From Catenulispora sp. EB89 (GTDB taxonomy: Bacteria; Actinomycetota; Actinomycetes; Streptomycetales; Catenulisporaceae), in assembly GCF_041261445.1 (NCBI RefSeq), contig NZ_JBGCCU010000017.1:124001-188000 (forward strand): a stretch of DNA of 64,000 nt, written 5' to 3'. Of the stretch, positions 4,957-55,081 are shown one piece after another. How positions within the stretch are numbered: the stretch's first letter is position 1; every line of letters starts with the position of its first letter. Position numbers and translations under genes: made by a program. Below the pieces are notes generated by a model, which ran no database searches, was not told the origin of the DNA, and was given only the letters and a program-made list of their open reading frames with translations.

Positions 4957-6044
4957 GTGCTTACGAGGCGGCGAACAACGGGTTCGGCGACGAGGACTTC
5001 GCGCCCTCGGGCGGCAGCGCCTGGTTCGGCGGGACGCCGGGCGCGCTGCCGGCCGGGCCGCTGAACGGGCACGACTTCGGCGCGGTGCCGGGCAGCTTCG
5101 GGCCGCGGCCGCCGATGGTGCCGGCCTACGGCCCGGCGCACGGCGAGGGCTTCGCGGCTCCGAGCTTCGCAGAACCCGGATACGCCAACGGCAGCGGGTT
5201 CACCGACACCGACGGCACGAACGGCACCAACGGCGTCGCCTACGCCGACCCCGGTTTCGGCGACGCTCAGGCCTTCTCCGACGCCCCCTCCTACGCCCCC
5301 GCCGCCCGCCACAGCTTCTCCGCTCCGCCGGCCACCCGCCCCGCGGACCCCACCAGCAGCAGCGCCCTGCTCCCGGCGCTGGCCCACCCGGGCCCGCCGC
5401 GGCCCGCCCCGGCCGGCGACGTGCTGCGCCTGGTCGCCGTCACCGCCGGCCTGGGCCAGCCCTCGACCGCGCGCATCCTGGCCGACCGGCTCGCCGACGC
5501 GGCCCGCGCGCGGCTCGGCGAGCGCGGGCGCCAGGTGCTCGTCGAGGTCCTGGAGCTGCGCGACCTCGCGCTGGACATCGCCGGCGCGATGGTGGCCGGC
5601 TTCCCGGGCGCGAAGCTGCGCGCCGCGCTGGACGCCGTGGAGGGCGCAGACGGCCTGATCGCCGTCAGCCCGATCTACACCGCCAGCTACAGCGGCCTGT
5701 TCAAGTCGTTCTTCGACGTCCTGGACAAGGACGCGCTCACCGGCAAGCCGACCCTGATAGCCGCGACCGGCGGCACCGCGCGGCACTCGCTGGCGCTGGA
5801 CCACGCGTTGCGCCCGATGTTCGCCTACCTGCGCGCGTTCATCGTCCCGACCGCGGTCTTCGCCGCCTCCGAGGACTGGGCCTCGGCCGGGGAGGGCGCG
5901 CTGTTCGAGCGCATCGAGCGCTCGGGGAGCGAACTGGCCGACCTGATGGCCGGCGCCCCGGCGGCCGCCCGGCGGCGCCGTGACGAGTTCGAGGACGTCG
6001 TGCCCTTCGAGCAGCGGATGGCCGCGCTCAGGTCCGGGCTCTGA
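4953..6044 (+). CDS. NADPH-dependent FMN reductase with long N-terminal extension (CE1759-type)
   Basis: The flavodoxin-like reductase domain occupies about residues 150-340: LRLVAVTAGLGQPSTARILADRL at its start, AVEGADGLIAVSPIYTASYSGLFKSFFDVL for FMN binding, and PTLIAATGGTARHSLALDHALRPMFAYLRA. This part matches CE1759-type reductases that partner CE1758-type monooxygenases. The first ~145 residues are a low-complexity Gly/Pro/Ala/Ser extension (NGFGDEDFAPSGGSAWFGG and similar) absent from the basic family; it looks disordered and its purpose is unknown. Translation is coupled to the upstream gene by a GTGA overlap. The stop codon lies in the first unit of a 12-bp tandem repeat. Confidence 0.87.
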   Translation: MSAYEAANNGFGDEDFAPSGGSAWFGGTPGALPAGPLNGHDFGAVPGSFGPRPPMVPAYGPAHGEGFAAPSFAEPGYANGSGFTDTDGTNGTNGVAYADPGFGDAQAFSDAPSYAPAARHSFSAPPATRPADPTSSSALLPALAHPGPPRPAPAGDVLRLVAVTAGLGQPSTARILADRLADAARARLGERGRQVLVEVLELRDLALDIAGAMVAGFPGAKLRAALDAVEGADGLIAVSPIYTASYSGLFKSFFDVLDKDALTGKPTLIAATGGTARHSLALDHALRPMFAYLRAFIVPTAVFAASEDWASAGEGALFERIERSGSELADLMAGAPAAARRRRDEFEDVVPFEQRMAALRSGL

Positions 6045-6122
6045 GTCGAGCTCTGAGTCGAGCTCTGAGTCGGGCCCTGAGTCGGGCCCTGAGTCGGGCC
6101 CTGAGTCGGGCCCTGAGTCGGT
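6039..6122 (+). repeat. 12-bp tandem repeat, seven units
   Basis: Seven consecutive 12-bp units run from 6039 to 6122. The first two read ctctgagtcgag, then the array shifts to ccctgagtcggg with a hybrid unit between. The stop codon of the FMN reductase (6042-6044) sits inside unit one, so the array fills most of the gap to the convergent FabH-like gene ending at 6154. The pattern suggests slippage expansion after the coding region. Confidence 0.9.
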
Positions 6123-6153
6123 CCGGCGGGATCGGCGAGGTACGGCAGAAAGC

Positions 6154-7182
6154 TCACAGCCGGGCCTTCCCGTGCAGCTCCGGCCAGGTGAGCACCGCCG
6201 ACCCCCAGGCCAGCCCGGCCCCGATCGAGGTCATCAGCACCCGGTCCCCGGCGGCCAGCAGGCCGGTGTCGTGCGCGTCGGCCAGCGCCAGCGGGATCGA
6301 CGCCGCGACCGTGTTCCCCACGTCCTCGATGTTCGCCACCACGCGCTCCGCGTCAATCCCCAGCTTCCCCGCCACGCCGTGGATGATGCGGATGTTCGCC
6401 TGGTGCGGGACGAACCGCCGCACCGACCCCACGTCCCACCCCGCCTTGTCCAGCACCCGCTTCGAGGACGCCGTCATCTCGCGGACCGCGCGCTGGAAGA
6501 CCACCGGCCCGTCCATCACCAGATACGGCCGCTGATTCGCCAGCGGCATCCCCAACCGGTCCCGGGCCCCGCCGCCGGGCACCTCCACCGCGGCCACCGC
6601 CGAACCGTCGCTGCCCAGGTCGAAGGCCCGCACCGCACCCGGCTCGTCCGGCGAGCCGGCCCGCAGCACCAGGGCCCCGGCACCGTCACCGAAGATCGAG
6701 GCGGTGAGCCGGTCCCCGGGATCGACCAGGGTGGTGAACACGTCCGCGCCGATCACCAGCACCCGGTCCGCCATGTGCCCCCGGATCAGCGCGTTCCCCG
6801 TGGCCAGGGCGTGCACGAACCCCGCGCACACCGCGTTGACGTCGAACGCCGCGATCCCCGTGTACCCCAGCCGCGAGGCCACCTCCGGCGCCGACGCCGG
6901 GCATAATCGGTCCGGGGTCGTGGTCGCCAGCAGCACCACGTCCAGCGCCCCGAACCCGCCCCCGGCCATCTCCAGGGCCCGGGCGCCGGCCTCGACGGCC
7001 AGGTCGACCGTGGAGATCCCGTCGGCGACGTGGCGCCGGGCGATGCCCAGCCGCTCCCGGATCCACTCGTCCGTGGTGTCCAGCCGTGAGCTCAGTTCGT
7101 TGTTGTCGACGGAGCGGGGCGGTACGCACCCGCCCACTCCCTGGACGACTGCCGCGCGTGTGTTCACACGCTCGATTGTCAC
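6154..7182 (-). CDS. 3-oxoacyl-ACP synthase III (FabH-like)
   Basis: This 342-residue thiolase-fold enzyme has the complete KASIII catalytic triad: Cys119 in VNAVCAGF, His260 in FVPHQANIRI and Asn290 in EDVGNTVAASIPLAL. The N-terminal DTTDEWIRERLGI motif and the GDGAGALVL strand are also typical. KASIII condenses an acyl-CoA primer with malonyl-ACP to start fatty acid or secondary-metabolite chain synthesis. No fabD, acpP or fabF is beside it, so it may be a stand-alone paralog rather than the housekeeping enzyme. It is divergent from the Rv1355c-type gene. Confidence 0.92.
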   Translation of the reverse strand: MTIERVNTRAAVVQGVGGCVPPRSVDNNELSSRLDTTDEWIRERLGIARRHVADGISTVDLAVEAGARALEMAGGGFGALDVVLLATTTPDRLCPASAPEVASRLGYTGIAAFDVNAVCAGFVHALATGNALIRGHMADRVLVIGADVFTTLVDPGDRLTASIFGDGAGALVLRAGSPDEPGAVRAFDLGSDGSAVAAVEVPGGGARDRLGMPLANQRPYLVMDGPVVFQRAVREMTASSKRVLDKAGWDVGSVRRFVPHQANIRIIHGVAGKLGIDAERVVANIEDVGNTVAASIPLALADAHDTGLLAAGDRVLMTSIGAGLAWGSAVLTWPELHGKARL

Positions 7183-7283
7183 GGGCCCGGACCGGACTCA
7201 CATAGGACTTTCGCGCACAATTCACCCGTAAGGTGCATCTCGGGCTTGTCTCCGCCAGGTTCGCCATCCCATCGTGGGCGATC

Positions 7284-9305
7284 ATGGACTCCCCGTGGAT
7301 CTTCACCGCCTTCCGCGCCCCGGCCGACCCGGACGCGGCCCCCGAAGCACTCCAGGAGATACGGCATCTGCGTGCCCGGATCCTGTTCGACCAGGGCCGC
7401 CGCCCGGCCTTCCGCAGCCACGCCGGCGACGGTTCCGGCGACCGCCCCGGCGACCACCCCGACGCACAGCCCGACGCCCAGCCGCAGGACCACGGCGCCT
7501 GGCACTTCGCGGCCCGGCGCGGCCGCGACGGCGTGCACGGACCGCCGCTGGGGTATGTCCGCCTCCTGACACCCGTGACCGCTTCCCTTTACCAGTCCAG
7601 GGAATTCCTCGGCGCCGCCCGCTACGACGAGCTCCTGCGCACCGAGCGCCTGGCCCCCGAGGCGGTCTTCGAACACAGCCGGCTGGTCGTCGAGCACCGG
7701 GCCCGCAAGCTCGGCCTCGGCCTGCACCTCAACGCCCTGGCCATCGCCGCCGCGCACGAGCTCGGCGCGGCCGCGATGATCGGCACCTCCGGCACCGCCG
7801 ACGGCCAGGACCGCTTCCACGCGCGCTTCGGCTTCCACCCGGTCCCCGGCACCCGGCGCTACGCCGAGCAGTACACCGAGGACGTCGTCATCCTGCTGCA
7901 CCGGTCCGCCGAGGGCGCCGGTGAGCACACCGCGCTGGTCGACGACTACCGCCTGCTGTTCCGCTACGACCTGCTGGAGGACGCGGGCCTGGACGAGCTG
8001 TCCGGTCTGCTCAGCCTCGGCGCGCACACCGAAGCAGAACCCTCATTCACCATCCCGGTCCCGGTGCGCGGCCCGGTCTCCGGCCAGGCCCCGCCCCGCC
8101 GCCTCACCGCGATCGGCCCGTCCGACCCGCACCGCTGGAAGCCGCTGCTGTTCCAGCCCGCCAAGCACGACGACCGGGTCGCGCTGGCCGCGCTCCTGAA
8201 CACCGGCGCCGTCCGCGAAGTCGCCGACACCATCGAAGCCCAGCTGGAAGAACTGATCCGGGCCCGCGACCCCGGCCGCGTCCTGGACGCCGAGGCGCTG
8301 GCCGCGGCCCGCCGGGACCAGCTGGAAGGCGGGCAGCCCTGGGACTACGGCACGTGGGCCTGGTACCCGTGGTCCGGCCGCCTGGTGCACGTCCTGCCGC
8401 GCGAGGAGTTCCGCCTGGTCCGCACCGACCGCAACCGCGGCAAGATCGACCGGCCCGAGCAGCGCCGGCTGCTGGACAAGCGGATCGGCGTCATCGGCCT
8501 GTCGGTCGGCAACAGCGCCGCGCTGACGCTGGCGCAGGAAGGCGTGGCGGGGGCCTTCAAACTCGCCGACTTCGACACCCTGAGCGTGTCGAACCTGAAC
8601 CGGCTGCGCGCCGGCCTGCACCAGATCGGCGTGAACAAGGCCGTGCTGGCCGCCCGGCAGATGTTCGAGATCGACCCGTATCTGGACATTGAGATCTTCC
8701 CCGGCGGGCTGACCGAGGAGACCGTGAAGGAGTTCTTCCTCGGCGGCCACGGCCCGATCGACCTGCTCGTCGAGGAGTGCGACACGCCGTGGGTGAAGCT
8801 CGCGGCCCGCGAGGCCGCCCGGGATCTGGGGGTGCCGGTGGTGATGGACGCCAACGACCGCGGCCTGCTGGACGTCGAGCGCTTCGACCGCGAACCGCAC
8901 CGGCCGCTGCTGCACGGCCTGCTCGGCGCGCTGACCCCCGAGGACTGCCTGGACCTGACCTTCGCCGAGCGCGTGGACCTGATCCTGGCCATGGTGGACG
9001 GCGACCGGATCTCCCCGGCGCTGGCCGCGAGCATCCCGAAGATCGGCCGCACACTGAGCAGCTGGCCGCAGCTCGCCTCCGGGGTGGCGCTCGGAGGCGC
9101 GCTGGTGACCGAGGCCGCCAGACGGATCCTGCTCGGCGGCCCCTGCGCGTCCGGCCGGTTCTACATCGACCTGGAGGAGCTGATCGCGCCGGACCGGAAC
9201 CAGGCGCCGGGTCAGGTACCCGGCCGAGCGCCTGGTCAGGAGTCTCGTGCGGATCAGGCGCCCTGTGCGGATCAGGCGGCGGTCAGCTTGCCCAGCGCCC
9301 CGTAG
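7284..9305 (+). CDS. Rv1355c-type protein: GNAT-like domain fused to ThiF/E1 adenylation domain
   Basis: Two modules are visible. Residues ~20-210 resemble an N-acyltransferase domain (EHRARKLGLGLHLNALAIAAAHELG, then RFHARFGFHPVPGTRRY). From ~400 there is an E1/ThiF Rossmann domain: RIGVIGLSVGNSAALTLAQEG nucleotide-binding loop, DFDTLSVSNLNR, GVNKAVLAARQ and VEECDTPWVKLAARE. This architecture matches mycobacterial Rv1355c (sometimes labelled MoeY). E1 domains adenylate a C-terminal carboxylate; the partner here is unknown. ATG 7284 was chosen, but GTG 7233 is also possible. The C-terminus (QAPGQVPGRAPGQE) is repetitive and overlaps the 3' end of the convergent methyltransferase gene by 34 bp. 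Confidence 0.82.
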   Translation: MDSPWIFTAFRAPADPDAAPEALQEIRHLRARILFDQGRRPAFRSHAGDGSGDRPGDHPDAQPDAQPQDHGAWHFAARRGRDGVHGPPLGYVRLLTPVTASLYQSREFLGAARYDELLRTERLAPEAVFEHSRLVVEHRARKLGLGLHLNALAIAAAHELGAAAMIGTSGTADGQDRFHARFGFHPVPGTRRYAEQYTEDVVILLHRSAEGAGEHTALVDDYRLLFRYDLLEDAGLDELSGLLSLGAHTEAEPSFTIPVPVRGPVSGQAPPRRLTAIGPSDPHRWKPLLFQPAKHDDRVALAALLNTGAVREVADTIEAQLEELIRARDPGRVLDAEALAAARRDQLEGGQPWDYGTWAWYPWSGRLVHVLPREEFRLVRTDRNRGKIDRPEQRRLLDKRIGVIGLSVGNSAALTLAQEGVAGAFKLADFDTLSVSNLNRLRAGLHQIGVNKAVLAARQMFEIDPYLDIEIFPGGLTEETVKEFFLGGHGPIDLLVEECDTPWVKLAAREAARDLGVPVVMDANDRGLLDVERFDREPHRPLLHGLLGALTPEDCLDLTFAERVDLILAMVDGDRISPALAASIPKIGRTLSSWPQLASGVALGGALVTEAARRILLGGPCASGRFYIDLEELIAPDRNQAPGQVPGRAPGQESRADQAPCADQAAVSLPSAP

Positions 9306-44028: not shown

Positions 44029-45236
44029 CCTGTCTTTGCCGAAAACCTCATCCGTGCAGGTCAGGCCGCCGGCCGGTATTCATTGATCACGCCGCCTGCG
44101 CGGCGGGTTCTGCGGGCTCGGAAGGCATCGAGGTCAGTAACGTTCGGCGGTATCGGTTTGAGCGGGACCGCTGCTGACAGGCTCATGTGTGGCCTGTGAG
44201 CGTTGTAGTGGAGCTCGTAGCCGTGCAGGATCCGCCGCAAGTGTGCGTGGTTCCAGATCAAAGTACGGTCCAGCAGTTCACGTCGGACCGAACCGACCCA
44301 GCGTTCCATGGTCGCGTTCATGCGTGGGGTTCGCACGTTGCACAGCACGGTGCGGATGCCGACATCGGCCAGGACAGCGTCGAAGGCGGCAGTGAAGTTG
44401 GAGCCTCGGTCACGAATCAGGAACTTCACAGTAACAGCCGCGTCGTCGAGTTCCATGACCATGTTGCGGGCCATCTGCGTGGTCCACTCACCGGTCGGAT
44501 GAAGCGTGCTGCCAAGGATGCGGATCCGGCGGGTGGCATGCTCAATGACGGCCAGGACGTAGACTTTCGTTCCGTCCAGCAGGTCGGCGGTGAAGAAGTC
44601 GGCGGCGATGATCCCTTCCGCCTGGGACCGGAGAAAACACCCCCAAGTCACCGAGCCACGCCGTGGCGCCGGGTCGACGCCTGCATCCTTGAGGATCTCC
44701 CAGACGGTGGAGGCGGCGACGCGCACGCCAAGTCCGGCCAACTCGCCGTGGATCCGCCGGTAGCCCCATCCCGGGTTCTGGCGTGCCATGCGGAGAACCA
44801 GGGATTTGATGTTCCGGTGCATGGCCGGACGGCCGTTCTTCGGGCGGGACTTCTTCGCCCAACGACGCCGCAGCAGGTCGCGATGCCAACGCAGGATCGT
44901 GTCCGGCGTGACGATCAGACGCAATCCAGCGCGACGCGCCTTGGGCACCAGACTCACCAGCAGAGCGATCACCGCGCGATCCGCCCAGTCAGGTCGTGGA
45001 CGTCTTCCTACCGAGACGAGCTGCCGCTGCAAGGCGGCGAGTTGGTGGCGTAGCAGCAGTATCTCGATGGTCTTGTGATCGTCGCAGCGCCGCCACAGTC
45101 CAAGCGCGGGCACGATACGGACGGCCAGAAGGTAGACGAAGCGCAGACACACAAGAACTCACGATCCCACCGGCAGCCCGCCGCTGTCCGGGCATCCCAC
45201 CTGACCGGCACGGATGAGGTTCTCGGCAAGGACAGG
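44029..45236 (-). mobile_element. IS element with rve transposase (~1.2 kb)
   Basis: 37-bp terminal inverted repeats at 44029-44065 and 45200-45236 (outer ends CCTGTCTTTGCC and CCTGTCCTTGCC, shared core AACCTCATCCGTGC) differ at three or so positions. One intact transposase gene lies inside. It separates the T7-like operon from the defence block. Confidence 0.87.
44061..45152 (-). CDS. integrase-core (rve) transposase
   Basis: The 363-residue protein is a distant relative of the copies at 17-22 kb. It has an HTH part (IVTPDTILRWHRDLLRRRW), HTH_21-like segment (ARQNPGWGYRRIHGELAGLG) and DDE core: Asp in IIAADFFTADLL, Asp in IRDRGSNFTAAFDAVL and Glu in NATMERWVGSVRREL. All three catalytic residues are present, so it may be active. 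It ends NEYRPAA, overlapping the left inverted repeat. Confidence 0.92.
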   Translation of the reverse strand: MCLRFVYLLAVRIVPALGLWRRCDDHKTIEILLLRHQLAALQRQLVSVGRRPRPDWADRAVIALLVSLVPKARRAGLRLIVTPDTILRWHRDLLRRRWAKKSRPKNGRPAMHRNIKSLVLRMARQNPGWGYRRIHGELAGLGVRVAASTVWEILKDAGVDPAPRRGSVTWGCFLRSQAEGIIAADFFTADLLDGTKVYVLAVIEHATRRIRILGSTLHPTGEWTTQMARNMVMELDDAAVTVKFLIRDRGSNFTAAFDAVLADVGIRTVLCNVRTPRMNATMERWVGSVRRELLDRTLIWNHAHLRRILHGYELHYNAHRPHMSLSAAVPLKPIPPNVTDLDAFRARRTRRAGGVINEYRPAA

Positions 45237-47374: not shown

Positions 47375-48997
47375 TCAAAGCCGCTCGGGATCCAAGATGG
47401 AGACGAATTCGCGGTACTCCTGAACCACAATGTCGACGTACTCGCTGTTATGTTTCAGGTACTGCATGATCGAAATGATATGCCGGTCCTGAGCCAGTCG
47501 GCGGAACGTCTCCGAGTATTCAGATGGATGAGTCCTGGACGAGTGGACGACAGCGCTGCTGTTCTGGACGGTCCAGATGCGGTGCTCGTTGTCGACGCTG
47601 GCCTCGTGAGGTGTGACGCCTATCTGGTCGAGGAGCACATATTCCAGACCTAGCAAGTCCAGCAGATCAAGGTCATGTTGCCAGGTGATGCCGCCGTAAC
47701 GAGTCGCCGACCAGTACTGGGGGTCCTGATAGACCAGGCGCACGGCGTCCGCAAAGTTCCAGGGGGTCTGGCGGGTCCAGCACAGCGTCCCGCGCGCGAA
47801 AGTACCATCACCAGCCTTGGGATGTGTCCCGGCGGCCAGGTTCGGTAGGTACTTGCCGACTTTGTCAGGCCACGCGAACACGAGAGCCTCCAACAGATCA
47901 CACGGGTTGTAAACGTGAAGCCATACATCGCCGTCGCCAACGCGCGCTGCGGCGTCGTTCAGCCAACCGCGCACGAGAATCTCCCACGTTTCGTTTCCGG
48001 CCAGGCTGTTCTCGGTCTGTCTCAGGAATCCCTTCCAGCGCGTCGCCATCTGCGGGTTCGCCGAGCCCGTGAAGATGATCTGGCTGTCCCCGTGAGCGTC
48101 TCCGCTGAGAGCCAGGAACAGATCGGTGTCGCTGAGATCCTCCATGGCCTGGAATGCCCCGGAGACGCGGTAGCCTTGGATCTTCCACGACGAGTCCGCC
48201 GCGATGTTCCGAAGCAGCCCAGGTACTGCACCCTCCAGATCATGATCCGCGCCCGCAGTGCCATTACAGATCTTGCACAGAAGGAGATACTCGGCGGGGT
48301 ACTCCTCGGCGAACGGCTCCGGCCCGTCATATCCGACCAAGAGATCGTCCGACGCCTGCGCAGGATCAACGACACCGACCGCCAGGTACAGACCGAAAGG
48401 CCTGGGGATGATCTCCTTCCGCGCGACGCGATCGAAGTCAGCCGCTACCAGGTCGGGGGCGTCGAATTGGGACGCCCACCAGACGATGTGATCCCACATC
48501 TGATCGCGCTGGTCAGCACTGTCGAAGAAGAACAGCATGTGGATCGGCGAGACCCAGTGCTCGAAAGAGGCTTCCAAGAACTCTACGCGCTCAGCCCCAA
48601 CGATCGCGCCTTCCTCATCCAGTCGCAGATGATAGCCGCGCAGGTCATAGCTCCAGTCGCGGGCGGCGCTACTCGTCGGGACCAACAACTCCGACCACTC
48701 AGTAGACACGACGATCGTCCTGATGCGATCAGCCGGGAGGTGCTTTTCGCTGCACAGGAGCTCGGCGTACTTCATCACCTCGTGGAGCGCCTGCCGGGAA
48801 GCTGCCTTCGAGCGCTTGAGCTCGATCACGACCCACATCCCGTGTCGGTCACGGGCCAGGATGTCGATGCTCCCACGCGTTCCGTTGCTGTTCGGCAGCG
48901 GATATTCCCCATAGCGGACCGGCTTGAGGCCTGGTTCGATCACATCCAGGTTCCGTACCAGACGATCACGGAGTTCCAGTTCCGATGGCACAGGCAT
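47375..48997 (-). CDS. NucS-like PD-(D/E)XK nuclease fused to a large C-terminal domain
   Basis: Residues 1-120 of the ~540-residue protein look like the nuclease domain of NucS/EndoMS (DUF91): RGSIDILARDRHGMWVVIELKRSK with Asp45, Glu59 and Lys61 as the D...ExK active site and a following helix LHEVMKYAELL. NucS normally is ~220 residues and has an N-terminal domain; here the nuclease comes first and ~400 residues of unknown alpha/beta sequence follow (HMLFFFDSADQRDQMWDHIV, WNFADAVRLVYQDPQYWSATRY). It is divergent from gajA, 168 bp away, in a lower-G+C block. It is probably a defence nuclease rather than the mismatch-repair enzyme. Start ATG 48997 chosen over longer frames. Confidence 0.75.
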   Translation of the reverse strand: MPVPSELELRDRLVRNLDVIEPGLKPVRYGEYPLPNSNGTRGSIDILARDRHGMWVVIELKRSKAASRQALHEVMKYAELLCSEKHLPADRIRTIVVSTEWSELLVPTSSAARDWSYDLRGYHLRLDEEGAIVGAERVEFLEASFEHWVSPIHMLFFFDSADQRDQMWDHIVWWASQFDAPDLVAADFDRVARKEIIPRPFGLYLAVGVVDPAQASDDLLVGYDGPEPFAEEYPAEYLLLCKICNGTAGADHDLEGAVPGLLRNIAADSSWKIQGYRVSGAFQAMEDLSDTDLFLALSGDAHGDSQIIFTGSANPQMATRWKGFLRQTENSLAGNETWEILVRGWLNDAAARVGDGDVWLHVYNPCDLLEALVFAWPDKVGKYLPNLAAGTHPKAGDGTFARGTLCWTRQTPWNFADAVRLVYQDPQYWSATRYGGITWQHDLDLLDLLGLEYVLLDQIGVTPHEASVDNEHRIWTVQNSSAVVHSSRTHPSEYSETFRRLAQDRHIISIMQYLKHNSEYVDIVVQEYREFVSILDPERL

Positions 48998-49164
48998 GTG
49001 CTGAAGACTACGACAGAGCCCTGACGGCTGAGATCGCGTGCCGAAACCGACATAACGGACACACCGAGTGTATGAAATAGGGAATTGCGAACCCTGAGTC
49101 ACTGAGGTTAGCTCACCGATATCCTGCGGCTGGGTCGATGCAGCAATCAAGGGGAGCGGAGCCA

Positions 49165-51108
49165 GTGAAGATCACGACGTTGCGGCTGAGCAACTTCCAG
49201 TCCTTCGGTCCGAAACCGACGGCAATCGACCTCGATGAACTGACATATGTCCTCGGTCCAAACGGCTCAGGCAAGACCGCTGTCCTTCAGGCCCTGTCCC
49301 GGGTGTTCAGCCCGCTAGAGGCCCAGCGCAAGATCCGCCTTGAGGACTTCCATGTGCCCGTCGACCAATCCGCAGGAAATTTGGAGGCCTGGGAGCCGAC
49401 GTTGTGGCTAGAGGTGGATGTCGAGTTCCCGGAAGCAGGAACCGACGGGCAGCATGCGTCGGTCCCACCGAATTTCTCTCATATGGCGATCACCACCGCT
49501 AACGGGGTTCCGCGGACCCGTGTGCGGTTGACAGCGTCGCTGGCGCCAGATGGCGTCATCGACGAGAGGATCGAGTACGTGCTGGAGGAAGACGGAAAGG
49601 GTGAGCCGACTCGCTGCGCCGACATGTCCCGGTATGACCGTGGGCACATCGAGGTGTACTACCTTCCGGCTCGTCGGGATCCTGCCGACCATGTCTCGTA
49701 CACGACGGCATCGCTCATCGGACGCGCTCTGCGAGCCGCTGACTGGACCACGGAACGCGAGACACTGAGCGACCTCACGGCTCAGATCACCGCATCGCTC
49801 GTCGCGAACACCACAGTAGCGAGCATTGGCCTTCGTCTGACCGACGAGTGGCACCGGCTGCACCACGGCACGTACTTCAGGGATCCGTCGATCGCCTTCG
49901 GGCGAGGCGAGCTGGAGGGTGTGTTGCGCCTGCTCACCGTGAGCTTCTCACCCACACACGATGGACCACCGCTGCCGTACGAGCGGCTCAGCGACGGACA
50001 GAAGTCCTTGCTTTACATCTCGCTCGTGCTTGCCTGGCAGTCCCTGGCTCGGCGAGTCCTCAAGGGCGAGGAGACCTCCGTCGACGCCGACCGCCTACGC
50101 CCGCCCGTGCACACCGTTATCGCGCTTGAGGAGCCCGAGAACAGTCTCGCGCCGCAGTACCTCGGCCGAGTCATCCGCCAACTACGTGGTGCGTGCGCAC
50201 ACGGCGACGTGCAATCCCTCATCGCCACGCATGCGCCCACACTCCTCCGGCGCGTCGATCCCCGCTCGATCTGCTTCCTACGGCTAAACACAGACAGGGA
50301 GACGGCCGTCCGCCGGATCGTCCTGCCCGAGGGGGAAGAGCTGGCCGCCAAGTACGTACGGGAAGCTGTACAGGCCTACCCCAAGCTGTACTTTTCTCGG
50401 CTCGTCGTGCTGGGTGAGGGCGACAGTGAGCAGGTGGTCCTGCCACGTATTCTGGCGGCCGTCGGCATCACCGAAGACGACGCATCCGTGTCAGTGGTAC
50501 CCCTGGGTGGTCGGCATGTCAACCATTTCTGGCGCCTCCTAAACGAGCTGCAGATCCCGCACGTGACACTTCTCGACCTCGACGCCGGCCGCTACCAGGG
50601 CGGCTGGGGACGGGTGCGCAACGCCCTGAAGCAGACAAACGCAGTCCGTCCGAACAGCTTCACGGAACAACAAGTCAGTAGAATCCCCAAGTGGAATGAA
50701 GCTCACTACTTCCCAGCTCTGGTGGACCACCGGTACGGCCCTATCGAGGCGCTGGAGCGAGAAGGGGTCTTCTTCTCCCACCCAGTCGACCTCGACCTGA
50801 TGCTGCTGACCGCCTATCCCGAAGCCTACGGTGTCAGTCCTGCTGTGCCGGGCGAGTCAACGGAGCCTGACGAGAGCACCATCGTGGCTGTACTCGGGAA
50901 GAGCCACGCGAACGAAGACCGCCTCCCCGAGGAAATCCGGGCGCTCTTCGATGACTACCACGCCATATTCGATCTCGGAAGCAAGCCTGCTGCGCACCTC
51001 GCTGCCCTCGCTGGCCTGAATGACGAGCAGTTGCTGATGAACCTCCCCGACGTACTCTCGCGACTAGTCAAGCACGTGCGTACGAAGCTAGCGGAGCTTC
51101 CGGAATGA
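49165..51108 (+). CDS. gajA: Gabija protein GajA (OLD-type ATPase-TOPRIM nuclease)
   Basis: The ~647-residue protein has an ABC-type ATPase N-terminus: MKITTLRLSNFQSFGP, Walker A GPNGSGKT (31-38), signature LSDGQKSLLYISLVLA and Walker B TVIALEEPENSLAPQYL. A TOPRIM domain follows (LVVLGEGDSEQVVLPRIL and LLDLDAGRYQGG). This is OLD family; GajA is a DNA-nicking nuclease regulated by nucleotides. GTG 49165 follows GGAGCGGA, while ATG 49138 has no site. The stop overlaps the helicase start by four bases, the classic Gabija pair. Confidence 0.9.
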   Translation: MKITTLRLSNFQSFGPKPTAIDLDELTYVLGPNGSGKTAVLQALSRVFSPLEAQRKIRLEDFHVPVDQSAGNLEAWEPTLWLEVDVEFPEAGTDGQHASVPPNFSHMAITTANGVPRTRVRLTASLAPDGVIDERIEYVLEEDGKGEPTRCADMSRYDRGHIEVYYLPARRDPADHVSYTTASLIGRALRAADWTTERETLSDLTAQITASLVANTTVASIGLRLTDEWHRLHHGTYFRDPSIAFGRGELEGVLRLLTVSFSPTHDGPPLPYERLSDGQKSLLYISLVLAWQSLARRVLKGEETSVDADRLRPPVHTVIALEEPENSLAPQYLGRVIRQLRGACAHGDVQSLIATHAPTLLRRVDPRSICFLRLNTDRETAVRRIVLPEGEELAAKYVREAVQAYPKLYFSRLVVLGEGDSEQVVLPRILAAVGITEDDASVSVVPLGGRHVNHFWRLLNELQIPHVTLLDLDAGRYQGGWGRVRNALKQTNAVRPNSFTEQQVSRIPKWNEAHYFPALVDHRYGPIEALEREGVFFSHPVDLDLMLLTAYPEAYGVSPAVPGESTEPDESTIVAVLGKSHANEDRLPEEIRALFDDYHAIFDLGSKPAAHLAALAGLNDEQLLMNLPDVLSRLVKHVRTKLAELPE

Positions 51109-52763
51109 TCTCCCCCGATCTGTGGCAGCCGGTAGACGGCCTCAGCCTCGAGCCAAACGCGATGTCGGCCGTCACGTTGATGGACAAAAACGTGGTCGTC
51201 TCCGCTGGACCAGGAGCCGGCAAGACTGAGCTTCTCGCCCAACGGGCGGACTTCCTGCTGCGCACCGGACAGTGCCCCTACCCGCGCAGGATCCTGGCTG
51301 TCTCATTCAAGGTCGACGCCGCCCGCAACCTGCGCGAGCGAGTTCGCCGTCGCTCAGGCCCGCGGCTCGCTTCCAGGTTCGATAGCTTCACTTTCCACGC
51401 CTTCGCTAAGCGCGTGATCGACAATTTCCGGCCCGCATTGACCGGATACAACGCCCTTGACCCCGACTACCAGATCGCTCCTGACACGCGAATCCAAGCC
51501 AAGCAGATCACCTTTGCCGACCTCGTGCCGCTGGCGTTGGAGATCGTCGAGGCCAACGCCTACGCTCGAGGAGGGATCCGCCAGACATACAGCCACGTCT
51601 TCCTCGACGAGTTCCAGGACTGCACCAAGCAGCAGTATCAGCTGATCAAGGCGGCATTCGGCCACTCAACGGCCGTCCTGACTGCCGTAGGCGACACCAA
51701 GCAGCGGATCATGGCTTGGGCTGGCGCACTGGACGGAGTCCTACAGACTTTCGCCGGCGACTTCTCAGCCCGACCGCTACCGCTGTATCAGAACTTCCGT
51801 TCGGCGCCACGACTGCGACGGATGCAGAACCGAATGATCGCTCAGATGGACCCAGGGGCGGTCAGTCCCGACGAGGAGCCGGTCGGAGATGACGGCGTCA
51901 TCGAAGTGCTCGCCTTCGATACCGAACACGACGAGGCGCAAGCTGTTGCGGAGCTCATCGGCGGCTGGCTCCGCAAAGGTACGACACCTACCGAGATTGC
52001 CATCCTGGTGCGCCAACAGCCGCACCTGGTCGCGGCAGCCCTCGGCCATGAACTCGCAGGCCGTAGCATTCCCTTTCGCAATGAGCAAGAGAGCCAAGAC
52101 CTCATTGTAGAGCCAATAGTTGCGCTGGTATTCAACTTCATCCGCGTAATCGCCGATGACAGACAACCCGACGCATATACCGAACTCATGAGGATCACTA
52201 AGCGGTCCAGCGCATCCGAGGAAGAAGCATCACGCTTCAACGGCCAGTTGAAGCGGATGCTGGGCCAGGCCCGAGCGACCGTACGTTGCGCCACGTTTAA
52301 GGGCGGAGAGCCTGAGGCATGGAGGTCTCTCGTTAACGAGTTCCTGCAACTGGTGCCACAGCCGGTGCTGACCTCGTTGTCAACCGGGTATCAACAGGGC
52401 ACTCGGCTGGCTGACCTGATCGAGCATACGCTAGTCGTTTTCGAGCGGGAGCTTGCTGTTGATGGGGACGCCATCCAAGCCCTCCGACACCTTTCAGAGA
52501 TGGACGCTATTCGGTTCTTGACCATTCACAAGTGCAAGGGCCTGGAGTTCGAGAAGGTTGTCGTCCTCGGGGTCGAGGAGCAGCTCTTCTGGAGCACGCC
52601 CATCGTGGCGACGTCCGAGTTCTTCGTCGCGATTTCCCGCGCTAAGCAGCATCTCGTATTGACGCACACACAGCGCCGCGCTCGACCAGAGGGATTCGCT
52701 GGGAGATGGGACGAGTGGCGTACGCCGTACCAACCGTTCTTGGATTTCGCCCACGAAACCTAG
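51105..52763 (+). CDS. gajB: Gabija protein GajB (UvrD-like SF1A helicase)
   Basis: The 552-residue helicase has Walker A SAGPGAGKTELLAQ, motif Ia AVSFKVDAARNLRERV, motif II VFLDEFQDCTKQQYQLI, motif III TAVGDTKQRIMAWAGA and motif V/VI-like ITIHKCKGLEFEKVVVLG (here FLTIHKCKGLEF). GajB senses DNA ends or nucleotide loss and partners GajA in abortive or direct phage defence. ATGA overlap with gajA couples translation. It is of usual length (about 500 aa). Confidence 0.9.
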   Translation: MISPDLWQPVDGLSLEPNAMSAVTLMDKNVVVSAGPGAGKTELLAQRADFLLRTGQCPYPRRILAVSFKVDAARNLRERVRRRSGPRLASRFDSFTFHAFAKRVIDNFRPALTGYNALDPDYQIAPDTRIQAKQITFADLVPLALEIVEANAYARGGIRQTYSHVFLDEFQDCTKQQYQLIKAAFGHSTAVLTAVGDTKQRIMAWAGALDGVLQTFAGDFSARPLPLYQNFRSAPRLRRMQNRMIAQMDPGAVSPDEEPVGDDGVIEVLAFDTEHDEAQAVAELIGGWLRKGTTPTEIAILVRQQPHLVAAALGHELAGRSIPFRNEQESQDLIVEPIVALVFNFIRVIADDRQPDAYTELMRITKRSSASEEEASRFNGQLKRMLGQARATVRCATFKGGEPEAWRSLVNEFLQLVPQPVLTSLSTGYQQGTRLADLIEHTLVVFERELAVDGDAIQALRHLSEMDAIRFLTIHKCKGLEFEKVVVLGVEEQLFWSTPIVATSEFFVAISRAKQHLVLTHTQRRARPEGFAGRWDEWRTPYQPFLDFAHET

Positions 52764-52826: not shown

Positions 52827-53085
52827 CCCATGCAGGTCAGGCTGTGTGTTCGTACTCATGCAGGATGCCGCCGAGTCGGTCGCGTCTTTGCACATTCAGT
52901 TCGACGATGTCAGGAGGGCCTGTGTTCTGGAACCTGGAGTGCGCCACCCGGGTGCCGCACACTGCCCCCGAGATACGCATGATCACCTCCGCTCCGTCGG
53001 CAAGCCGTCGACCTGAACGTGCGAAGACGCGACCGACTCGGCGGAATCCTGCACGAGTACGAGCAGGCTGCCTGACCTGCATGGG
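52827..53085. mobile_element. MITE-like element: two inverted copies of a transposase 3' end
   Basis: Long inverted repeats of ~76 bp lie at 52827-52902 and 53010-53085 with roughly ten mismatches. Both arms translate, outward, to the C-terminus of an rve transposase (QRRDRLGGILHEYEHTA on minus; RRRDRLGGILHEYEQAA on plus). The two 3' ends therefore flank ~107 bp of unrelated sequence. It is a miniature derivative or a collapsed pair of IS copies between gajB and the EVE-type nuclease gene. Confidence 0.75.
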
Positions 53086-53201: not shown

Positions 53202-54611
53202 TTATCGCTGGAACGCATCGTTCTCTGTGCCAGGCCAGCCCAACTGGATGTCGCAGCTACCGCACAGCTGCTGCCAGCGTGCGCAGTCTTCAGGTTCGGA
53301 TGAGAGCCACAGGACACCGTGCACATCGCGCCCGTCTGAGCGGTACCGATCCATGTAGTCGAGCGTCTGGCCTAGGCCGTAGCGCAACTGAGCCAAGTCG
53401 TTGCCGTCCTGGAGGGACTTGACCTCGATGATGGTGATCCGCTCGTCCTCCTCGAGGAGAAGGTCCACCTCGGCCTTCCAACCGAGGGCTCTGTCGAAGG
53501 TCTGGACCGTGTCCTTGCCGAACTGTGAGCGGAGCCAGGTGAGGAGGGCGTTCTGGGTCTCATTGTGGAGATTGGTCGCGGTGACTGTAGCTTCGGGGGC
53601 GCCCAAAGCAAGTCTGCCGCCGTTTGGGAGATAGTCGGCTTTGACAGGTTCGGCGACCCGGCCGAGGGGGCGACGGGCGGCGGTGAACTCGTCGTGTAGT
53701 GCGAAGCGGTCGACGACCGTGGTGTAGAAGCTGACGTTGTCTTCCTGGGCCTTGTCCTTTATGGAGGCCATGGTTCCGCGCAGGAAGGTGGCACGTTCCA
53801 TGTCGCGGTCGTCCTTGTCGCGAACGAGGCGACCAAGCCATTGGACGCGGCGACGATGCCGATGGTCTGTGGTGGCACGGTAGTAGGCACCAACACGACC
53901 GATCCAGATCTCGCCGGGCGAAGTACCGATTGCGGCAGTGCGGAAGACGACAAGATCGCCGGGCGCCATGATGTTGAGAAAGCTGTTGAGGCTGCTGGAC
54001 TCTGAGACACTCCGCCCCCTTTCCAGACCCGCCGCCTTAACGGACTCCCAAGATCTGCCGTATAGATCTTCGGTAACGTCTCCGAAGCCGACGGATACGT
54101 ACTCATCGGCGACCCAAGCAGCGGCTCGCTCGCTGCGCGTCATCTCCCTATAGAAGCGGCTCTGCTCATCGTCGGAGTGGCCAGGGTTGATCTTCCACAT
54201 TGGGCGGCTGCTGCCGATGTCAGTCAAGGAGCTTGAGAGCGACCGGTACGTCTCCCACGCCTCGGAAAGAAGGGACGTGACCGTCTCGAAGTCTTCGTTT
54301 GTGGCGGGGCACCACGCGCTCCGCAGGAAGTTGTTGATCACTAGCACGTGGTCGCCGCGCCTCTGACGCGGTTTGCCGCGCGAGTTAGTTGCGGAGCCCT
54401 GAGACTCATAGAACTCGTCGTAGGCCGGCTGGGGCAGAAGATGTCGGTTCGCGTTGAGAAATCTGGCCCACGGCGTAGACAGCAAGTACGCAGGTTCTGC
54501 GCTAAGCGCCGTTGGGGCCGCTACAGAAGGTAGCGAGTTTCGCCAATCGGCGACGGTTGCAGCGACGGTCTTCACGGATCCGATAGTCGCAGAACTCATA
54601 GTCGCTTGCAT
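53202..54611 (-). CDS. EVE/PUA-like domain fused to PD-(D/E)XK nuclease
   Basis: The ~469-residue protein has an EVE-like domain at about 165-265: AAAWVADEYVSVGFGDV, PGDLVVFRTAAIGTSPGEIWIGRVG and HRRRVQWLGRL match the aromatic-cage fold that reads modified bases. The C-terminus is an Mrr/REase-type nuclease with Asp383 (KAEVDLLL), Glu396 and Lys398 (IIEVKSLQDG) as D...ExK. This pairing is that of modification-dependent restriction enzymes such as McrBC/Mrr relatives, so it may cut DNA with modified cytosine. The N-terminal ~130 residues are unknown. Start is uncertain between 54599 and 54710. Confidence 0.72.
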   Translation of the reverse strand: MQATMSSATIGSVKTVAATVADWRNSLPSVAAPTALSAEPAYLLSTPWARFLNANRHLLPQPAYDEFYESQGSATNSRGKPRQRRGDHVLVINNFLRSAWCPATNEDFETVTSLLSEAWETYRSLSSSLTDIGSSRPMWKINPGHSDDEQSRFYREMTRSERAAAWVADEYVSVGFGDVTEDLYGRSWESVKAAGLERGRSVSESSSLNSFLNIMAPGDLVVFRTAAIGTSPGEIWIGRVGAYYRATTDHRHRRRVQWLGRLVRDKDDRDMERATFLRGTMASIKDKAQEDNVSFYTTVVDRFALHDEFTAARRPLGRVAEPVKADYLPNGGRLALGAPEATVTATNLHNETQNALLTWLRSQFGKDTVQTFDRALGWKAEVDLLLEEDERITIIEVKSLQDGNDLAQLRYGLGQTLDYMDRYRSDGRDVHGVLWLSSEPEDCARWQQLCGSCDIQLGWPGTENDAFQR

Positions 54612-54825: not shown

Positions 54826-54868
54826 CTACGGATTAGAAGGTTAGGGGTTCGAATCCCTTCGTGCGCAC
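54826..54868 (+). other. putative attR: distal copy of tRNA-Arg 3' half
   Basis: The 43-nt segment matches 17231-17273 with one mismatch. No acceptor 5' arm, D arm or complete anticodon arm precedes it, so it is not a tRNA. It marks the probable far end of a 37.6-kb integrated element. The C-to-T change would give a G-T pair in the anticodon stem. Confidence 0.75.
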
Positions 54869-54895
54869 TCATGTTAGGCACATGAACCGCAGGTC

Positions 54896-54930
54896 AAAGC
54901 CCCTCCGCCATCGCAAGTGGAGGGGCTTTT
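54896..54930 (+). terminator. intrinsic terminator beyond the distal tRNA repeat
   Basis: An 11-bp stem (54896-54906 with 54919-54929), 12-nt loop and T-run (ctttt) follow the tRNA remnant by 27 bp. It is a plausible original terminator of the tRNA-Arg gene, displaced when the element inserted. Confidence 0.8.
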
Positions 54931-55081
54931 GCGTGCCCTGTTCCGGGGCCGGTCTCACTTCTTGTCTCAGTCGAGGTCTTCCGCGTCATACTCCGGCGCC
55001 TCTGGAGACTCCTTTTGCGGCCGCCTACAACGCCAGACTCGCCGTCCCCTATTGGAGGGTCGGCGTAGACCGGTTCAGCTA

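Follow-up and report, generated by a model that had tools for sequence, protein, structure and literature searches.

Described systems and the present locus

Base modification protects phage DNA, and enzymes whose cutting is limited to DNA of this kind form a layer of defence and also serve as tools for the mapping of 5mC and 5hmC. In the family of MspJI and its relatives, which has this role, the reader is SRA-like and not of the EVE/YTH type. EVE/YTH folds, for their part, also read RNA, and the proteins of the XisH family (PF08814), to which the nuclease discussed below is compared, are small stand-alone proteins tied to the excision of the fdxN element.

Fusions of an EVE/YTH-like reader and a PD-(D/E)XK nuclease in a single chain are put forward as a predicted class, with a proposed function in modification-dependent restriction, in the main text of Bell et al. 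2020 (PMC7641849). In VcaM4I, an EVE-HNH enzyme, 5mC or 5hmC is flipped into a hydrophobic pocket of P24, W82 and Y130, according to the pertinent sections of the paper on that enzyme (PMC7897488), and the N-domain of T. gammatolerans McrB is described in passages of two papers as a binder of 6mA DNA (PMC7641849, PMC12707154).

The window, i.e., the whole stretch of 64,000 nucleotides from Catenulispora sp. EB89 that was analysed here, carries on its minus strand an open frame at 53202-54611, whose product is probably a stand-alone, single-chain modification-dependent (Type IV-like) restriction endonuclease. The product resembles the fusions of Bell et al. 2020 in joining an EVE/YTH-like reader and a PD-(D/E)XK nuclease in one chain; however, its nuclease branch is not described in the main-text parts of that paper that were compared (PMC7641849). 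Similarly, it shares with VcaM4I the combination of an EVE reader and a nuclease, whereas the nuclease of VcaM4I is of the HNH type and its reader stands at the very N-terminus, as far as the enzyme is described in the sections cited (PMC7897488). Because EVE/YTH-PD-(D/E)XK fusions have been published as a predicted class (PMC7641849), the kind of protein is already known; what appears to be new is a nuclease branch with several interchangeable natural readers, and a search of the open-access literature, exclusive of supplements, yielded no description of this branch or of an EVE-SRA-nuclease form.

Reader half

The EVE/YTH-type PUA-like reader and the helix following it occupy 53652-54215 on the minus strand (residues ~133-320, the reader itself ~133-310, with a well-modelled core at 161-260). 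The reader and nuclease halves were modelled apart, as a combined full-length alignment misplaced the reader rows. In the AlphaFold2 model of residues 1-320, obtained from 26 sequences with a mean pLDDT of 65.6 and a pTM of 0.51, the block pLDDT amounts to 83-93 at residues 161-260, 70-79 at 131-160 and 42-71 beyond 260. Foldseek alone returned nothing significant for this model, the best match (E 0.12) being 2gbs, which we take to be an EVE-type entry, followed by a Lon N-domain and then a YTH domain. Realignment with VIA-align placed 1wmm at the top (Z 9.6, rmsd 3.0, 120 aligned), followed by 2hd9 (Z 9.5) and 2p5d (Z 9.0), all three of which, like some other matches, are presumably EVE proteins; YTH domains reached Z values of at most 8.5, 2eve 7.4, THYN1 with 5mC DNA (5j3e) 6.7 and the T. 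gammatolerans McrB N-domain (6p0f) 5.9, and these values are subject to the program's own warning that a Z of ~7-8 may reflect a common arrangement. The last of these matches is likewise a YTH-type reader of Type IV restriction, but one that belongs to a GTPase system.

The best 44 VIA-align rows were all EVE, YTH, THYN1, ASCH or McrB-N, several of them presumably so by our own assignment, and the later rows stayed below Z 5. Because these 44 rows are of one kind, and because of the architectures of the relatives, an EVE/YTH-type PUA-like fold is accepted as a prediction for the reader half; as predicted, it is a fold known to read modified bases, as would befit a Type IV enzyme. The sequence-only reading had claimed an EVE-like reader, and the predicted fold agrees with it, the motifs EYVSVGFGDV and VQWLGRL lying at residues 170-179 (54075-54104, minus strand; a strand at 171-175, then F176) and 256-262 (53826-53846, minus strand; containing W258), respectively. 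The span of residues 165-265 that it gave to the reader does hold the EVE/YTH PUA fold in the model, but the limits have to be widened to about 133-310. Judging by conservation, W139, F176 and W258 are candidates for the residues of the pocket: W258 is identical in 25/25 aligned relatives, and the positions of W139 and F176 are aromatic in 24/24 and 19/24, respectively.

By profile, the product is not a member of Pfam EVE (PF01878), which gave no match up to E 1 and thus fell short of the gathering score, so that the likeness to EVE is one of fold only; Pfam SRA, which shares the PUA-like scaffold with EVE, also gave no match to E 1 in the 469-aa protein. Profile searches of the sequences of solved structures with the reader alignments produced nothing meaningful. 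The reader half is related by its alignments to the PADLOC PDC-S02/Mrr-type proteins: in a single-protein scan, the best PDC-S02 profile matched weakly (E=6.6e-5, residues 197-271, profile positions 55-130), another matched residues 160-266 at E=0.0037, and the profiles were confined to residues 160-290 of the 469-aa protein. However, the PDC-S02 members examined end in an Mrr-type nuclease, whereas the present protein has no Mrr_cat match to E 1 and carries another PD-(D/E)XK branch; since its nuclease half differs, it does not qualify as a full member of PDC-S02. Over the host genome (E<=0.001), the PDC-S02 profile gave three matches, the 53202-54611 gene not being among them; in the host, a stretch other than this gene, at 591454-591780 of contig C3 (G000), matches the PDC-S02 reader half and contains one in-frame TGA.

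The reader recurs in other architectures. The best PDC-S02 profile matched 55 of 246 phylum genomes, many of the matches spanning only the nuclease half of the profile; among 12 PDC-S02 loci examined, the same kind of reader stands N-terminal to an Mrr-type nuclease in three (L045, L046, L049), ahead of a NucS-like nuclease in one (L050) and within long proteins in three more (L052, L054, L059), the first two of which also have an AAA+ part, the nucleases and AAA+ parts of these loci being named by eye. With the reader alignment (11 sequences, A4), matches were obtained in at least 48/246 class genomes, the window included, and the window copy is the only one in the host genome among the matches listed. 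A Pfam scan of 38 reader-bearing frames gave AAA_5 in 19, Mrr_cat in 6, Mrr_N in 4, HNH in 2 and NucS_C in 1; the frames came from 23 of the 24 loci of the 246-genome reader search (the window's own being omitted), 6 further loci, L014 and 8 of 16 PDC-S02 loci (omitting one duplicate, one broken frame and those matching the nuclease half); only matches with a locus were covered, and locus ends cut some of the frames. The AAA_5 relatives are taken as McrB-like, which AAA_5 alone does not prove and which agrees with published EVE/YTH-McrB fusions, as presented in the main text of that work (PMC7641849). In such relatives, the reader would most simply confer specificity on Type IV restriction systems.

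Nuclease half and its relatives

The PD-(D/E)XK nuclease domain lies at 53217-53594 on the minus strand (residues ~340-465), and the alignments together with the model place its predicted catalytic stretch, D383...E396-V-K398, at 53418-53465. A loose pattern (D, 11-15 residues, E-[VI]-K-[ST]) occurs in 24/24 members of the nuclease family. MAFFT alignments disagree on the column of the aspartate, some giving D373 and others D383; D383 is preferred as the putative catalytic residue because its 13-residue spacing to E396 is that of the relatives and because it starts a strand in the model, which was itself built on the D383 alignment and is biased that way. The nuclease model has a mean pLDDT of 85.6 and a pTM of 0.79. 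Its Foldseek matches are led by the small subunit of R.BspD6I (E=8.9e-4) and an R2 retrotransposon protein (9.5e-4), followed more weakly by BstEII (1.6e-3), Cdn1 (1.8e-3), MspJI (4.9e-3), which likewise has reader and PD-(D/E)XK nuclease in one chain, EndoMS (7.7e-3) and McrC (1.5e-2). VIA-align ranked McrC (Z 10.5, rmsd 8.6), Can2/Cdn1 (10.3), EndoMS/NucS (9.6) and an XisH-type entry (2okf, 9.3). The sequence profile of the nuclease also points weakly to XisH (E=0.014), and XisH (PF08814) matches weakly, at E<=0.05, in 13/24 nuclease relatives, whereas the 469-aa protein itself has no XisH match to E 1.

A further trait of a Type IV enzyme, a nuclease domain with conserved active-site residues, is thus present in the predicted structure. 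The D...ExK nuclease that had been read from the letters is borne out as D383-E396-K398 by a PD-(D/E)XK core in the model and by fold matches to restriction enzymes; moreover, the two features on which that reading had been staked beforehand, an EVE/PUA fold and a nuclease core, are both found in the predicted structures.

Nuclease relatives were found in 6/60 genomes of relatives (the closest at E=7.8e-23) and in at least 9/396 phylum genomes, where L014 matches the reader only; an alignment search gave at least 5/394 class genomes, with L027-L029 as weak matches (E 8e-6 to 5e-4), and the window is included in each of these counts. Two short peptide patterns led to 13 nuclease loci in genome contigs (60 stretches matched a pattern), and a search of viral contigs with the nuclease alignment gave 2 loci, i.e., nuclease modules on two IMG/VR contigs (L043 and L044), in the latter of which a ResIII-type helicase gene lies just upstream of the module. 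Two places are duplicates (L003 = L033; L004 = L039), and the counting set of n=24 (A13) omits these, the truncated L002, the 56-residue fragment L006, L027-L029 and the second frame of L042. Chance is excluded as the origin of the frame because both halves are conserved, the reader profile in the class genomes counted above and the nuclease in a relative as close as that just mentioned.

The nuclease stands behind different N-termini, which are putative readers of modified DNA. At E<=0.05, Pfam gave SAD_SRA in 11 of the 24 nuclease relatives (best 2.2e-5), EVE in 7 (best 1.3e-4), MTaX1 in 2 and BRCT in 1, and no N-terminal domain in the members of the present kind; among the matches shown singly, both MTaX1 matches are above the Pfam cut-off, while those to SRA, EVE and BRCT are below it. 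The SRA-like segment of the relatives matched ScoMcrA (5zmn E=8.6e-5; 5zmm 1.7e-4) and SUVH5 (0.012). From letters and profiles, the Streptomyces/Actinacidiphila relatives (L030-L036, L038, L040, L041) combine EVE-like, SRA-like and nuclease parts in one chain, L037 consists of EVE-like and nuclease parts, and L039 (Actinocrinis) of SRA-like and nuclease parts. Since hhalign gave the reader profile a probability of only 17% (E 0.0014) against the EVE-like segment of these cousins and 1% against their SRA-like segment, a reader shared with the Streptomyces cousins is not claimed; the EVE-like segment had no meaningful match among solved structures. The present pairing of reader and nuclease was found only in the window and, as a copy that lacks the greater part of the reader, in G007, a genome of the same genus, where by eye it adjoins an IS630-transposase-like gene.

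Several further loci are worth recording. The same nuclease follows BRCT-like N-termini in L005 (in L018, ~6472-7311), L010 and L013, with one weak Pfam BRCT match, in L010; a Chloroflexi contig (L042) has two SRA-like/nuclease copies (1120-1785 and 5014-6240), the first apparently without a start; and the weak relative in L029 (1390-2820, minus strand) has, by its letters, an SRA-like start and a nuclease-like end (EVKS...ALGQILDY). A GmrSD gene lies two genes upstream of the nuclease in L018, and a UvrD-type helicase gene beside it in L024. In a gene comparison of 24 nuclease loci, the nuclease cluster was found in 23 and no other gene cluster in more than 2, the comparison being a rough one with a simple ORF caller that missed the L020 nuclease.

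The modification-dependent restriction design proposed from the sequence is supported by the predicted reader and nuclease folds, by reader relatives of McrB-like and Mrr type and by SRA-like and EVE-like nuclease relatives.

DNA or RNA as substrate

In a different reading, the protein would be a nuclease with modified RNA, such as m6A transcripts or tRNA, as its substrate, and would shut down the infected cell. The reader's best structural matches include YTH domains, whose ligand in eukaryotes is m6A RNA; RNA is also the predicted target of CoCoNuTs, some of which have YTH-like domains, in the parts of their description consulted (PMC11090510); and the nuclease has fold matches to CRISPR ancillary nucleases and to viral cap-snatching endonucleases. 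However, DNA enzymes account for both nuclease matches at E<=0.001 and for the majority of the leading ones, and the nuclease relatives carry SRA-like and MTaX1 domains, which are tied to DNA, so that an RNA substrate is considered improbable.

Host methylases and the mark

No match to the C5-cytosine methylase family PF00145 was found in the host assembly, 10/14 control genomes being positive for it; PF02384 exceeded its cut-off three times, PF02086 matched a single frame in two pieces (4/14 controls), and PF01555 gave one match over the cut-off (a 215-residue frame) and one below. Because the host has no C5-methylase match and does have adenine-type matches, a modified cytosine (5mC/5hmC type) fits this host better than m6A as the target: given the adenine-type methylases, an m6A cutter of low specificity would risk self-damage and a 5mC/5hmC cutter would not, within an argument that rests on the families searched, since other families could produce marks and recognition by the reader may depend on sequence context. 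The window's contig has no match to the four methylase families searched (PF00145, PF01555, PF02384, PF02086), i.e., no cognate methyltransferase of these families stands alongside the gene, as would suit a Type IV enzyme.

The same survey bears on the idea of a methylase-linked restriction nuclease directed against DNA that is unmodified or carries the wrong modification, its methylase being separated from it or encoded elsewhere in the genome. Association with methylases is possible for the same nuclease, since MTaX1-nuclease genes lie beside two N6_N4 methylase genes in two cases (L008/L020 and L011/L023). This explanation is nevertheless as improbable as action on RNA, as the contig lacks matches to the four families and the domain in the 469-aa protein is EVE/YTH-like, not MTaX1. 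These two arrangements (L020, 7841-11424; L023, 2664-6421), in which the adjoining N6_N4 methylases have ~600 residues each, come from two different families of the phylum.

Integrity of the gene

The frame runs from an ATG at 54611 to a stop at 53202-53204 and encodes 469 aa; on the opposite (plus) strand of the same interval, stops break the register examined. The GC content by codon position is nearly flat for residues 1-67 (0.58/0.57/0.63) and biased for residues 68-137 (0.51/0.56/0.80) as well as in the remainder of the frame. A scan upstream of ATG 54611 found no Shine-Dalgarno-like sequence, a weak one precedes GTG 54347 (residue 89), and the N-terminal ~130 residues have a block pLDDT of 31-65 in the model; the 5' end of the gene is ambiguous on these signals, with GTG 54347 as a possible alternative start. 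The 469-aa protein matched no Pfam family at the gathering score (the sole match to E 1 being PDDEXK_1, 0.012) and had no match in NCBIfam (to E 0.1), in PHROGs (to E 0.01) or among plasmid and phage records; peptide patterns drawn from the protein itself found nothing in viral contigs.

A decayed or unexpressed remnant might likewise show the weak coding signal of residues 1-67 and an ATG without a ribosome-binding site, and the G007 copy, with most of its reader missing and a transposase-like gene beside it, would fit such a fate. Yet the frame is intact, the catalytic residues are conserved, the codon-position bias holds from residue 68 onward and the domains are well modelled, which leaves decay a decidedly improbable account and an active restriction endonuclease the preferred one.

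Island setting and Gabija

A Gabija system adjoins the gene, with full-length GajA at 49138-51108 (plus strand; PADLOC GajA E=6.8e-238) and GajB at 51105-52763 (plus strand; PADLOC GajB E=9.8e-198), as had been noted from the sequence. Divergent from it, a NucS-like gene of 591 aa at 47375-49150 (minus strand; Pfam NucS_C E=4.2e-10) overlaps the gajA start; its NucS C-terminal domain lies at residues 57-150, ~440 residues are of no assigned nature, and it is perhaps a further defence gene. Between GajB and the 53202-54611 gene stands a palindromic MITE-like element (52827-53085) with 80-nt arms that are 89% complementary; one of its ends is 70% like an end of the IS-like element at 44029-45236.

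The third-position GC of GajA, GajB and the NucS-like gene is 0.73-0.75, lower than the 0.88-0.97 of the genes called at 0-15.8 kb, where the gene caller retained only frames above 0.75, and this difference suggests that the region is acquired DNA. To the right of the gene, alignable DNA of the same genus starts at ~56.85 kb (84% in G004 and 94% in G001, among six same-genus genomes besides the host), and to the left there are a DDE transposase gene at 45.4-46.2 kb and, by eye, an IS-like gene with 37-nt inverted repeats at 44.0-45.2 kb. The position at an island edge that had been assigned to the gene is therefore reasonable, given the resumption of the same-genus alignment and the transposase gene. 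A short stretch at ~54826-54980, which recurs with 88-98% identity at several sites of genomes of the genus, is probably an IS or MITE remnant.

At 26 nuclease loci (24 distinct places, 319 kb), neither a GajA-GajB pair nor a NucS-like relative was found, the window, as positive control, giving all three; the sole Gabija traces lay in L024, where GajB had a UvrD-type match of 165 residues (E=1.4e-5), and in L040, where 68 residues matched GajA (E=0.002). As the pair did not recur across these 24 places, linkage to Gabija was rejected and a role in it is unlikely. That the protein is an accessory component of the neighbouring Gabija, despite its place beside full-length GajA and GajB and its similar third-position GC, is very improbable in view of its opposite strand, the intervening MITE-like element and this lack of recurrence.

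Proposed action and significance

As a single-chain modification-dependent restriction endonuclease, the protein would bind incoming DNA by its EVE/YTH-type domain, and a modified base, probably flipped out, would enter an aromatic pocket. The C-terminal PD-(D/E)XK domain, with a putative metal site of D383, E396 and K398, would then cut nearby DNA, perhaps as a dimer. Self DNA would be spared, as the host would not carry the mark, and DNA with modified bases, such as that of some phages, would be destroyed, which would give the protein a role in phage defence.

On a broader and more tentative view, which we regard as possible rather than probable, the nuclease half would be a mobile and so far undescribed cutting module that occurs in actinobacteria and some others, placed on swappable readers (EVE/YTH, SRA-like, EVE plus SRA-like, MTaX1 and BRCT-like) to give one-gene restriction enzymes with swappable chemistry, and the Streptomyces EVE-SRA versions may need two marks or accept either. 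A single nuclease module with several natural readers would allow the specificities of readers to be compared directly on a constant cutter, and the nuclease family provides putative candidates for modified-DNA cutters from high-GC actinobacteria.
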